A stretch of DNA of 35,096 nucleotides, from NCBI GenBank assembly GCA_029006195.1, contig JAQXGH010000041.1, positions 1 to 35,096 on the forward strand. Direction: 5' to 3'. The translations under genes and the position numbers were made by a program. Under the pieces are notes generated by a model. The model worked only from the letters and a program-made list of their open reading frames with translations, did not search any database and was not told where the DNA came from. Below are positions 19,131 to 26,761 of the stretch, piece after piece (the first letter of the stretch is position 1; every line of letters starts with the position of its first letter). Source of the DNA: Bacillota bacterium. GTDB taxonomy: Bacteria > Bacillota > Clostridia > Peptostreptococcales > Anaerovoracaceae.

Positions 19131-20144
19131 TTGTTTGATAAAGTAATTTCAAGACCCATCTCAATGGACAGCGACGATGTGCTGGTGAAAATGATGGGTT
19201 TGACAAAGGTCTGGCTAGATTCGGATGAAACCGAACCGCCAGCTGAAATATATGGATTCATTATGAACTTCAGGGGTAAACTCGAAGACTATATCTTTGG
19301 TGAGGATAGCCCAAAGTTCATGGAGAAATACTTGCCGCTTTTGGAAAACGAAGCTAACGACCTGATTTCCAAAGGCCTCATGCGTCCCTTCGGAATGCTT
19401 GATATAATTGATAGCTTCCTTGATAGGGCGGTTGAGGAAGAGTGCATCGAGCTCAGGGCATGGCTGATGGATTATAAAGGCCGCAGCTTTGACGATGAAG
19501 TCATTGATGAAGCGGACATGGACAAAATGGATTTGGAATTTGAGATGCGTGAAGCCTTTGCATATGAGAAGTTCCAAGTGGGAAATACAGTAAACTTTGG
19601 CCAGTACGAAGGGGAGCCTTTAAGCTGGCGGGTTTTGGACCTTGCCTGTGGCAGAGCGCTTCTGATTTCAGATAAGGGTATCGAATCCCTTCCATATAAC
19701 GAGGAGTGGGCGATGATCACCTGGGAAGAATGCACCATAAGAAAATGGCTTGGAGAGGGCTTCTTTGACGCCGCATTCACAGATAAGGAGAAGCCTCGCA
19801 TTTTGACGACAAGAGTCCTTAACTGCGACAACGATTACTACCACACTAAGGGCGGCAATGATACAGATGACAAGGTGTTTCTTCTGAGTATCGACGAAGT
19901 CAAAAGGTATTTTGACCGCGATCCGGACAGGCGCACACAGGCTACGGAGCACGTCAAATCTAAGGGAGCATATGTGTCTGGTACAGGCAATTGCTGCTGG
20001 TGGCTGAGATCCAGAGGATATAACGGGGACCAGTATGCAGGTTTTGTATATGATGATGGCGTCGTGTATGTGAGCGGCGATTTGGTATATAACTCCGGTT
20101 TCGTTGTAAGACCAGTAATATGGGTGGAAGTTGGCGGATTTTAA
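19131..20144 (+). CDS. DUF6273-like domain protein
   Basis: 337 residues. The N-terminal half (1-145) is acidic and helical with no family recognised. The C-terminal half (about 148-337) looks like a DUF6273 domain: NFGQYEGEPLSWRVL, RKWLGEGFFDAAF, CCWWLRSRG, then YVSGDLVYNSGFVVRPVIWV, a pattern common in Clostridia proteins of unknown function and reminiscent of surface-display lectin-like folds. No signal peptide is seen. The proposed start is TTG at 19131 after AGAAGG; an ATG 11 codons later is the alternative. It is 13 bases downstream of cca and 53 bases before pyrE, so it may share their transcript. Confidence 0.65.
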   Translation: MFDKVISRPISMDSDDVLVKMMGLTKVWLDSDETEPPAEIYGFIMNFRGKLEDYIFGEDSPKFMEKYLPLLENEANDLISKGLMRPFGMLDIIDSFLDRAVEEECIELRAWLMDYKGRSFDDEVIDEADMDKMDLEFEMREAFAYEKFQVGNTVNFGQYEGEPLSWRVLDLACGRALLISDKGIESLPYNEEWAMITWEECTIRKWLGEGFFDAAFTDKEKPRILTTRVLNCDNDYYHTKGGNDTDDKVFLLSIDEVKRYFDRDPDRRTQATEHVKSKGAYVSGTGNCCWWLRSRGYNGDQYAGFVYDDGVVYVSGDLVYNSGFVVRPVIWVEVGGF

Positions 20145-23997: not shown

Positions 23998-24339
23998 CTA
24001 CTGATACGGCGCGATCGAGTCGTAAATGAACATGGCGGTCCAAAAAATAGAAAGCGCGGCGCACCCTGCAATTTCAACGATCGAAAGGGCAGTGCGCCAC
24101 CCTGTGCGAGCCGCACCGCTTGATTTAGCCTTTCTCGCCGTCACGAGTGCTGCAATTGAAATGCCTAGCATAGGTATCGGCAATATCAATGAAATAACAG
24201 CTGAGAAAAATATAAGTGTCAGGCTCATTTCACCGTCTAACATGTAGCCAACTGTATAAAATGCAACGTAAATTACTGCGGCAGCAATTGGGATCGCCAC
24301 CAGCACTTTGCTTGATGTGTTATGTTTGATTTTTTCCAT
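23998..24339 (-). CDS. Small membrane protein, unknown
   Basis: 113 residues with three predicted membrane segments (about 11-35, 39-62 and 80-106). The start at 24339 is chosen because AAGGAGG is well placed; the frame remains open further upstream but without a ribosome binding site. The loop ARKAKSSGAARTGWRTAL is basic and probably cytoplasmic. No family is recognised with confidence, though the layout resembles DUF4190-type and other small Clostridia membrane proteins. It lies downstream of the repeat-bearing nuclease gene in the same direction. Confidence 0.6.
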   Translation of the reverse strand: MEKIKHNTSSKVLVAIPIAAAVIYVAFYTVGYMLDGEMSLTLIFFSAVISLILPIPMLGISIAALVTARKAKSSGAARTGWRTALSIVEIAGCAALSIFWTAMFIYDSIAPYQ

Positions 24340-24351
24340 GTTAGCCTCCTT

Positions 24352-24366
24352 ACATCCGCAGGATGT
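24352..24366. promoter_or_regulatory. Small palindrome ahead of the membrane-protein gene
   Basis: ACATCC-GCA-GGATGT, a perfect 6-bp inverted repeat just upstream of the ribosome binding site of the minus-strand membrane-protein gene. Possible operator or small leader hairpin; no further support. Confidence 0.25.
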
Positions 24367-24404
24367 GGTTGTTGTGTATATATTAGCATGGATGTATGGA
24401 GAGG

Positions 24405-24444
24405 GTGTGACGGAAATCGTGAAATAGAGACAATCCGTCACACC
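24405..24444. repeat. 40-bp palindromic repeat, copy 1
   Basis: Begins GTGTGACGGA and ends TCCGTCACACC, so its ends form a 10-bp inverted repeat. It is 38/40 identical to the copy at 24478-24517; the centres are 73 bp apart. Confidence 0.8.
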
Positions 24445-24477
24445 TGGCTAGTGTTGAACTCTGCGGGCGCCAGCGAA

Positions 24478-24517
24478 GTGTGACGGAAACCGTGAAATAT
24501 AGACAATCCGTCACACC
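24478..24517. repeat. 40-bp palindromic repeat, copy 2
   Basis: Same ends and orientation as copy 1, with two base differences. It overlaps the last codons (residues GVV) and stop codon of the minus-strand nuclease gene, so part of the repeat is translated. Confidence 0.8.
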
Positions 24518-25473
24518 ACGCCATCATCTTTCAGCCACGGCAGAAGTTTGCTGGTAATAATGCTGTCAATCTCTGCTAGATTGATGTCGTTGTCACAAGA
24601 ATAAGTGAAAATTGCATTGCGCCATGGGTAAAAGCCACACTCGTCGTAAAGGTTTCGCTTGTAGTAATAGTCGCCGCGATATTTTTCGTTGTCCATCATA
24701 CCGAAGTGTTCCCAAATCTTAAGCATGCGTCGATTGCTTTTGAACAAAAAGTCAGGAGACACACGGGTCCCGCCAATGTCAATAACTGGTTCATAGCGGA
24801 AAGGTATATTGTAGCTATATAGTTTTTCGGCGATAAGCAATTCATTCTTCGATCTCATGCGTAAACCACGAGATGTGTAAAGCGATCCTTTGAATTCTCT
24901 GTTGTTTTTTGGATAGTCGGCTTCGGCCCAGCGGAAAGTGTCGAGAGAAATGCCGTTTTCAGCGTAATTTTCGACACCCAGCAAGCCGCCAGCACCCGGC
25001 AAGCCGCCAGCACCCGGCAACCCGCCAGCACCCGGCAACCCGCCAGCACCTGGCAAGCCGCCAGCACCCGGCAACCCGCCAGCACCCGGCAAGCCGCCAG
25101 CACCCGGCAACCCGCCAGCTGGTTTTAGAAAATCCAGCAGAGGAATCTGCGGATACTTTTCTTGAAGAGCTGCCGCAATATCTGCGTTAGTGCTAGGGTC
25201 GAAATCGCCTAGTGCCGATTCTAAAACCGAAAGGTTGTGGTCATAAACAGAGAGGGTTTCTTCGAGAAAGGCTTTGCGAGCTAGGGCGCTTACCATTTCA
25301 GGGTTTGAAGTGATGCGGTGGCATTTGCGTTTACCATTATCCCAAAGTACGCGGTAGTAGCGGTGGAATTGGCCTTTTTCGAAAGCATAAATTAGTTTGC
25401 CGTCAGGACTATTCGCAAGTTCATTGTCAAAAATATTCTTATAGTATTTAATTTCTTCAAGCGTCTTCTTAAT
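24511..25473 (-). CDS. PD-(D/E)XK-like nuclease-fold protein with GGLPGA tandem repeat
   Basis: 320 residues. The N-terminal half (1-112) is charged and helical (KKTLEEIKYYKNIF, RITSNPEMVSALARKAF). Residues 120-163 are seven GGLPGA hexapeptides plus a degenerate GGLLGV, forming a flexible linker. The C-terminal half has RSKNELLIAEKL (Glu211), a PDF motif (Pro240-Asp241) and WEHFG (Glu255), the layout of a PD-(D/E)XK-type nuclease fold seen in uncharacterised Clostridia proteins, although the usual catalytic Lys is not evident. The only ribosome binding site, GGAGG at 25483-25487, implies an ATT start at 25473; an upstream in-frame TTG at 25497 would leave almost no leader after the predicted transcription start. 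Divergent from the CARF nuclease gene. Confidence 0.7.
   Translation of the reverse strand: MKKTLEEIKYYKNIFDNELANSPDGKLIYAFEKGQFHRYYRVLWDNGKRKCHRITSNPEMVSALARKAFLEETLSVYDHNLSVLESALGDFDPSTNADIAAALQEKYPQIPLLDFLKPAGGLPGAGGLPGAGGLPGAGGLPGAGGLPGAGGLPGAGGLPGAGGLLGVENYAENGISLDTFRWAEADYPKNNREFKGSLYTSRGLRMRSKNELLIAEKLYSYNIPFRYEPVIDIGGTRVSPDFLFKSNRRMLKIWEHFGMMDNEKYRGDYYYKRNLYDECGFYPWRNAIFTYSCDNDINLAEIDSIITSKLLPWLKDDGVV
24983..25122. repeat. 18-bp tandem repeat (coding VNTR)
   Basis: Seven full 18-bp units and a partial eighth lie inside the nuclease gene. Units differ at the third base (AAG or AAC start) and one C/T change; the Gly codon changes are synonymous, so the GGLPGA peptide is preserved. Such an in-frame array can change copy number without breaking the frame. 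Confidence 0.95.
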
Positions 25474-25502
25474 ATCAAAACACCTCCAAGTTTCCAATAT
25501 AT

Positions 25503-25548
25503 GGGAATTATATTCCCGTCACCACGCCCCTTCAACATAGTGTATAAT
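25503..25548. promoter_or_regulatory. Overlapping divergent promoters with a palindromic operator
   Basis: Minus-strand promoter: TTGAAG (25530-25535) and perfect TATAAT (25507-25512) with a 17-bp spacer. This -10 lies inside a perfect palindrome GGGAAT-TAT-ATTCCC (25503-25517). Plus-strand promoter: TATAAT at 25543-25548, without a clear -35, directed towards the CARF nuclease gene. The two promoters sit within 46 bp, so binding at the palindrome could affect both. Confidence 0.6.
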
Positions 25549-25579
25549 TAATGTCATAAAACAGTAAGGAGGCCTGGCT

Positions 25580-26761
25580 GTGAAAACACTGATCGAATTA
25601 TATGATGAGAGAACAATAGAGAATGTTATCGGACCGGAAACTTTCAGACCAGAGAAGATAGTATATATGTGCCCTGAGGAAGTGGTTAGAGACAAGGTTA
25701 GGCAGGAAGGGCTTAGGCGGTTTTTCGCACATCGTGGACTGGAGGCGCAGTTGGAATTTGTTGCCTGCAGCAAGTACAAGACTGACAGCATTTACAATCA
25801 GTTTAAGCAGATTGCGACTAATAACGGGGACTGCGCCATGGATGTTACTGGCGGGTCAGATGCGGCTCTTTTTGCAGCTGGACAGTATTGTAATGAGAGT
25901 GGAATGCCGACCTTCACATACTCCAGAAAACGTAACAAGTTTTACAATATAAGCAATGCGGATTTTGCACACGATGTGGAGTGTGCGCTTGAATATAATG
26001 TCGAGGACTTTTTTATGATGGCGGGCGGAACCCTGAGAAAGGGCCGCGTCGACAACAATATCCTGGGCGAATATATGGATAAATATGATGAGTTCTTTGA
26101 CGTTTTTGAGAAGAACAGAAGACATTGGGCGAGAGATATTTCATTTATGCAGAGGATTTCCAGAAGCGACTACGAGGGCAATTATTCACTGGATGTTGAG
26201 GGAAGCTACGAGCAGAAGGGTGAGCACGGCGGCCGCATTAAGGCCAACGAACCGTGGCTGCACGAACTGGAGCGAATCGGTTTCATAAAGAATCTGCATA
26301 TCGAAACTGGACAGAGCGTCAAATTCACATTCGCAGACGATCAGATCAGAAGCTGGCTGCGCGACGTAGGCAGTGTCCTTGAATTATATATGTACAAAAC
26401 CTGCAAAGACACAGGAATTTTCCGTGATGTTATAAGTTCGGCTATCGTCGATTGGGATGGTACAAACACTAAGGATAGCATAAGCAACGAAATCGATGTG
26501 GTTGCAACGCGTGGTGTAGTTCCGCTCTTTATCAGCTGCAAGGCTACAGAGGTGAAAACAGAAGCCATCAATGAGCTGGCGATCCTTCGAGACAGATTTG
26601 GCGGCAAGGGTGCAAAGGCTGCAATCGTCTCCACAGAAAACTGCAACGCAGCAGCTAGACATAGAGCAGCTCAGATGGGAATTGTCGTAATAGATAAAGA
26701 AGAAATCGAGAATGGCACTGTAGGAGAAAGACTTAAAATAATAATGAAAGTAGCAGAATAA
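25580..26761 (+). CDS. CARF-domain DUF1887 nuclease, Card1/Can2-like
   Basis: 393 residues. The N-terminal half resembles the CARF-type domain of DUF1887 proteins, with a ligand-loop-like DVTGGSDAALFAA (88-100). The middle (about 185-255) looks like a winged-helix linker. The C-terminal third is a restriction-endonuclease-like domain: SVLELYMY (Glu268), NEID (303-306, Asp306) and FISCK (317-321, Lys321), the motif order of PD-(D/E)XK nucleases. Card1 and Can2, members of this family, are activated by cyclic oligoadenylates made by type III CRISPR-Cas. No CRISPR array or cas gene is visible here, so it may respond to another signal or act in trans. GTG start seven bases after AAGGAGG. Confidence 0.78.
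   Translation: MKTLIELYDERTIENVIGPETFRPEKIVYMCPEEVVRDKVRQEGLRRFFAHRGLEAQLEFVACSKYKTDSIYNQFKQIATNNGDCAMDVTGGSDAALFAAGQYCNESGMPTFTYSRKRNKFYNISNADFAHDVECALEYNVEDFFMMAGGTLRKGRVDNNILGEYMDKYDEFFDVFEKNRRHWARDISFMQRISRSDYEGNYSLDVEGSYEQKGEHGGRIKANEPWLHELERIGFIKNLHIETGQSVKFTFADDQIRSWLRDVGSVLELYMYKTCKDTGIFRDVISSAIVDWDGTNTKDSISNEIDVVATRGVVPLFISCKATEVKTEAINELAILRDRFGGKGAKAAIVSTENCNAAARHRAAQMGIVVIDKEEIENGTVGERLKIIMKVAE

Follow-up and report, generated by a model that had tools for sequence, protein, structure and literature searches.

A stand-alone Card1/Can2-fold CARF nuclease of Clostridia with an acidic residue at a conserved basic position of the ligand pocket

CARF effectors are known chiefly for sensing the cyclic oligoadenylate produced by type III CRISPR systems. 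SthCan2 and Can1 share four contacts to cyclic tetra-adenylate (cA4), which are Ser19, Thr42, Lys99, and Tyr118 in Can2 numbering (PMC7969007), and the CARF superfamily carries a signature of Ser or Thr at the end of strand 1 and Lys or Arg after strand 4, often as [DN]X[ST]XXX[RK], with the basic residue after strand 4 being highly conserved (PMC4012209). Families that mostly lack this basic residue, such as RtcR and RV2818, are suggested to bind other ligands (PMC4012209), and RtcR is not activated by oligoadenylates (PMC9650030). In VC1899, an orphan DUF1887/PF09002 CARF nuclease of Vibrio cholerae (Protein Data Bank entry 1xmx), the equivalents of the cA4 contacts are Asp9, Asp34, Arg96, and Val115, and cA4 does not activate the protein, which was still uncharacterized when its structure was compared with that of Can2 (PMC7969007). 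We describe gene A, encoded in a 35,096-bp stretch of DNA (the window) that is one contig (JAQXGH010000041.1) of a 1.69-Mb metagenome-assembled genome of a Bacillota bacterium in the Anaerovoracaceae (GCA_029006195.1; completeness 85.18%). Gene A is a stand-alone CARF nuclease of the known Card1/Can2 fold, and we favor, with moderate confidence, the reading that some signal other than cyclic oligoadenylate controls it and that the divergently transcribed gene B beside it is a chance neighbor.

Gene A (25580..26761, + strand) codes for 393 amino acids and matches Card1_endonuc (PF09002; 5.8e-8; 32.8 bits, cut-off 26.4) and, over nearly its full length (residues 1-386), the PADLOC family CARF4--CARF_PDDEXK (1.3e-48), so that the Card1/Can2-like assignment made in the initial annotation is borne out. 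It has the Card1/Can2/VC1899 fold, with an N-terminal CARF and a C-terminal PD-(D/E)XK domain. The Rossmann-like CARF domain (25580..25960, + strand, approximately residues 1-127) is delimited by alignment to Can2 (7bdv), the strands of a structure model, and conservation, and model residues 1-125 match the CARF domains of Csm6, Cam1, Csa3, and others, with whole-chain matches as well. The nuclease domain (26369..26713, + strand; PF09002 match at residues 264-378) contains E304, D306, and K321, which form the ExD...K signature, and probably D283 as a further active-site residue. In an alignment of 82 sequences (the window protein, that of locus L018, and those of 80 related loci), N303, E304, D306, S319, C320, and K321 are invariant and D283 is present in 80.

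The CARF pocket is altered at all four positions of the cA4 contacts shared by Can2 and Can1. Profile alignment to 7bdv places D9, P32, D94, and T113 at the equivalents of Ser19, Thr42, Lys99, and Tyr118, and all four contact residues are thus replaced. The replacements are shared across the 82 sequences: position 9 is D in 80 (G in one, a gap in one), position 32 is P in 67 (S in five, T in three), at position 94, 77 sequences have D and five have E, and position 113 is T in 81. D9, D94, T113, and S115 are near-invariant, and R11 (69/82), R116 (76/82), and a basic residue at position 117 (K or R, 79/82) are largely conserved. The family misses the CARF signature, with D at strand 1 and [DN]X[ST]XXX[DE] in 65 of the 82 sequences; none has K or R after strand 4, where Asp or Glu stands in all. 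In the model, residue 94 opens the helix after the strand at 85-88 and residue 9 follows the strand at 3-7, as the CARF motif demands. Judged from sequence, such uniform replacement looks like a pocket that has been rebuilt rather than one that has decayed. Orphan CARF proteins outside CRISPR are already known (PMC4012209, PMC7969007), and the passages of the literature consulted here gave no description of the acidic switch, invariant in this family, or of how widely it occurs; no title among the literature matches listed names the acidic branch, which does not establish its absence from print.

Most genomes that carry gene A have no detectable Cas10. A Cas10 palm model finds none in the genome of the window and none over the cut-off in 49 genomes of the genus, seven of which have weak matches below it (two of the seven, G008 and G043, carry gene A), and among the genomes of the 80 related loci only five exceed the cut-off. 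In a comparison set of 120 relatives of all kinds, the palm model scores over the cut-off in 21 and above 100 bits in six. Cas1 is likewise absent from the genome of the window, although CRISPR arrays were not scanned genome-wide, and is found in eight of the 49 genus genomes, only one of which is among the 17 gene A carriers. The initial description of a CARF gene without cas genes in the window thus holds, for Cas10 and Cas1, in the assembled genome as well. Absence of Cas10 from a single incomplete genome is no proof, and it is the pattern across the family that carries the argument.

Gene A is patchily distributed in the genus (17 of 49 genomes, and six of the 18 more complete ones) and occurs in two settings, neither of which is that of the window. 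Members of subgroup 1 (66-69% identical) follow a U32 peptidase gene at four of six loci, and those of subgroup 2 (∼45% identical; L033-L042) are convergent with a metallo-beta-lactamase (MBL)-fold hydrolase gene at all ten. The 80 related loci overlap the genus set, with 12 contigs of the same length in both. Their database labels are Oscillospiraceae, Lachnospiraceae, Christensenella, and other Clostridia, and most come from metagenome assemblies of the rumen or other gut sources. The most frequent gene cluster is found at eight of the 80 loci, seven of these eight being genus subgroup 2 (gene A itself and an open reading frame antisense to it, present at 17 loci, are excluded from this count); outside its genus-level settings, gene A has no recurring partner. 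The 151 nearest neighbors match many unrelated families; in two listings, of 58 and 81 families, the first 25 of each are largely of metabolic or housekeeping function. A PADLOC scan of these neighbors at 1e-10, run without a control set of more distant genes, finds at most two proteins per family, and neither a defense island nor the defense role initially proposed for the locus gains support from this context. No homologues were found in phage, plasmid, or viral-contig collections, which speaks against a mobile-element origin. In a tree of 86 proteins whose bootstrap had not converged, a long branch with support sets 81 apart from five more distant relatives of the same GTDB family. The 13 rows from the genus form two separate clades, and the window protein groups with subgroup 1. 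This topology would fit either an old duplication or transfer between Clostridia.

A scan of the order with PF09002 identifies 29 loci in 28 of 393 genomes, an undercount because the genome of the window was missed despite the 32.8-bit score of gene A. Of these loci, 27 match the gene A-family profile, and many of those aligned lack its GGT motif. In 24 other PF09002-positive genomes, Cas10 palm matches exceed the cut-off in nine and are strong in one of these (G322, 120 bits, on a contig other than that with PF09002). We note that several PF09002 loci of the order (L148, L149, L151-L153, and others) seemingly have no GGT motif and lie in genomes without strong Cas10; further orphan PF09002 nuclease types may exist.

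Gene B (24511..25497, - strand, 328 amino acids) looks like a chance neighbor from a multicopy family that stands outside the gene A mechanism. The divergent pair is real, and the genes are separated by 82 bp in open reading frame coordinates, but no gene B relative adjoins gene A at any of the 17 genus loci (open reading frames, and tblastn over 217,610 bases, which as a control recovered all 15 of the 15 loci tested for the gene B family) or the 80 related loci (tblastn over 1,015,364 bases). The proposed co-occurrence of the two families accordingly fails at the level of gene neighborhood, and their genome-wide co-occurrence is uninformative because almost every genome of the genus has members of the gene B family (45/49 genomes, including 16 of 17 gene A carriers and 29 of 32 noncarriers). 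The genome of the window (G000) alone has nine matched stretches, in the window and in contigs C44, C12, C19, and C53.

The most serious alternative, which we consider unlikely but by no means negligible, is that the CARF domain is a dimerization scaffold that no longer senses a ligand and that gene A encodes a housekeeping nuclease for RNA or DNA metabolism, either constitutively active or under some other control. The largely metabolic and housekeeping neighbor families are consistent with this, as are the stable genus synteny with the U32 peptidase and MBL-fold hydrolase genes and the weak RNase activity, free of cA4 regulation, of VC1899, the nearest solved fold (PMC7969007). However, a dead pocket would need none of the near-invariant D9, D94, T113, and S115, and the patchy occurrence of gene A is unlike that of a core housekeeping enzyme. 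A sensing pocket could alternatively hold a noncanonical cyclic nucleotide made by a CD-NTase or a minimal CRISPR polymerase, with R11, R116, and K/R117 of the CARF fold holding phosphates. This is improbable, given that a SMODS synthase is found in only one of the 49 genus genomes, which does not carry gene A, and that no Cas10-like palm in the genus passes the cut-off, a search in which minimal polymerases had no model of their own.

We regard as slimmer still the chance that gene A is a type III CRISPR effector supplied with cyclic oligoadenylate by a Cas10 in the missing ∼15% of the genome. Membership in the Card1/Can2 family and the strong Cas10 matches in the genomes of two of the 80 relatives speak for it, whereas the genus-wide lack of Cas10 over the cut-off, the near-absence of Cas1 from carriers, and the replacement of the cA4 contacts speak against it. 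Least probable of all is the initial proposal that genes A and B form a two-gene, CRISPR-independent defense module. Their divergent arrangement at close spacing and the resemblance of the gene B nuclease domain to the C terminus of the PADLOC candidate defense family PDC-S68 (2.2e-22) speak for such a unit; against it, no gene B relative lies near gene A at the 17 genus loci or the 80 related loci, and the gene B family has nine matched stretches in this genome.

Several points weigh against the favored reading, that of a stand-alone CARF nuclease answering to a signal other than cyclic oligoadenylate. The relatives are 80 loci kept from 163 stretches encoding gene A relatives in the GTDB genome scan, and as these are metagenome assemblies, the absence of Cas10 is statistical; two relatives' genomes have strong Cas10 matches (G433 and G469, ∼110 bits), and three more have marginal ones (28.8, 27.7, and 27.2 bits), although the latter appear too weak to be separated from GGDEF proteins. 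The residue equivalences with Can2 come from a sequence-profile alignment at ∼17% identity, the structure model was built from 17 related sequences with no ligand, and three of the 82 sequences retain T at position 32, as does Can2 (Thr42). The acidic switch may also be less sharp in more distant PF09002 loci: within the same GTDB family the position appears mostly acidic (D in L158, L161, and L168; E in L165), with an unsure alignment, but is N in L159 and A in L172. Finally, the acidic residues could coordinate a metal ion compatible with binding of a cyclic nucleotide.

By analogy with Can2, gene A would act as a homodimer whose paired CARF domains jointly make up a ligand pocket and whose PD-(D/E)XK domains cut nucleic acid. 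The gating signal would not be cyclic oligoadenylate but might be an RNA end, a different nucleotide, or a ligand coordinated through a cation, and the outcome could be a stress response or a self-limiting role. More tentatively, and with rather less confidence than we place in the gating itself, a widespread branch of the Card1 fold in gut Clostridia may have exchanged the basic CARF anchor for an invariant acidic one and become a CRISPR-free alarm nuclease for a new class of signal, such as an RNA end or a metabolite that is cationic or bound to a metal. If a large family retains both fold and nuclease, is mostly Cas10-free, and has had its pocket uniformly rebuilt, it would put the same machinery to a second use. 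Such a family poses a concrete and testable question, namely, which ligand is bound, and bears on the role of orphan CARF proteins such as VC1899.

The remaining features of the locus concern its control signals, repeats, and gene B. Gene A has an AAGGAGG ribosome-binding site (25566..25572, + strand) 7 nt 5' of its GTG start and a TATAAT (25543-25548, + strand), both read from the sequence, and no nearby + strand promoter site above the threshold of the promoter scan. Gene B has a sigma-70-like match (TTGAAG-17-TATAAT, 10/12; 25507..25535, - strand). This promoter-like site fits gene B, but the overlapping promoters within 46 bp that had been proposed are weak because no passing + strand site lies near gene A and the three sites in 24300-26000 do not exceed expectation (mean of 2.4 in shuffled sequence). 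The listed TTG start of gene B lies upstream of a Shine-Dalgarno-like GGAGGTG (25487-25481, - strand), and there is no in-frame ATG, GTG, or TTG just 3' of it (25471-25497, - strand). An in-frame ATT at 25473, 7 nt past the GGAGGTG, may be the true start; either gene B uses this rare start or its start is damaged.

Gene B has no Pfam match above the cut-off. Its C-terminal domain appears PD-(D/E)XK-like, with weak structural support for a restriction-endonuclease-like core. The GGLPGA linker also described is present, encoded by an 18-bp minisatellite of 8.1 copies (24975..25119, - strand), and residues 128-175 have a predicted local distance difference test score below 50. The array is probably a recent, length-variable expansion, since it was not seen in 14 relatives.

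The flanking repeats are confirmed as two copies of a 40-bp palindromic element (24405-24444 and 24478-24517; 95% identical), the second of which extends into the end of gene B. They are the only matches in the genome with up to three mismatches allowed, which speaks against a dispersed mobile repeat. The lipoprotein remnant is not confirmed: the open reading frame in question (23998-24441, - strand) reads as a small hydrophobic protein with no obvious break and no family above the cut-off. A cation-efflux gene lies downstream in the window; an empty-site comparison using it found no orthologous site, the best other match in the genus being 36% identical. The gene at 19131-20144 (+ strand) has a C-terminal stretch with a WWLRS motif that we take to resemble DUF6273-type domains.

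Among known systems, gene A is most like the VC1899-type orphans, with which it shares the fold, the nuclease residues, the lack of a linked type III system, and an unconserved cA4 site. Identity to VC1899 is 17%, however, and at the position of Can2 Lys99 VC1899 keeps a basic residue, Arg96, where the gene A family is uniformly acidic. Can2 and Card1 (7bdv, 8bao, 6wxw, 6xl1, and 8q3z) are CRISPR ancillary nucleases, in contrast to gene A, in which their cA4 contacts are all replaced and whose family mostly does not occur with Cas10. RtcR resembles gene A as a non-CRISPR CARF protein that mostly lacks the strand-4 basic residue and for which another ligand is suggested (PMC4012209), but it is a transcription activator of an RNA repair operon and not a nuclease.
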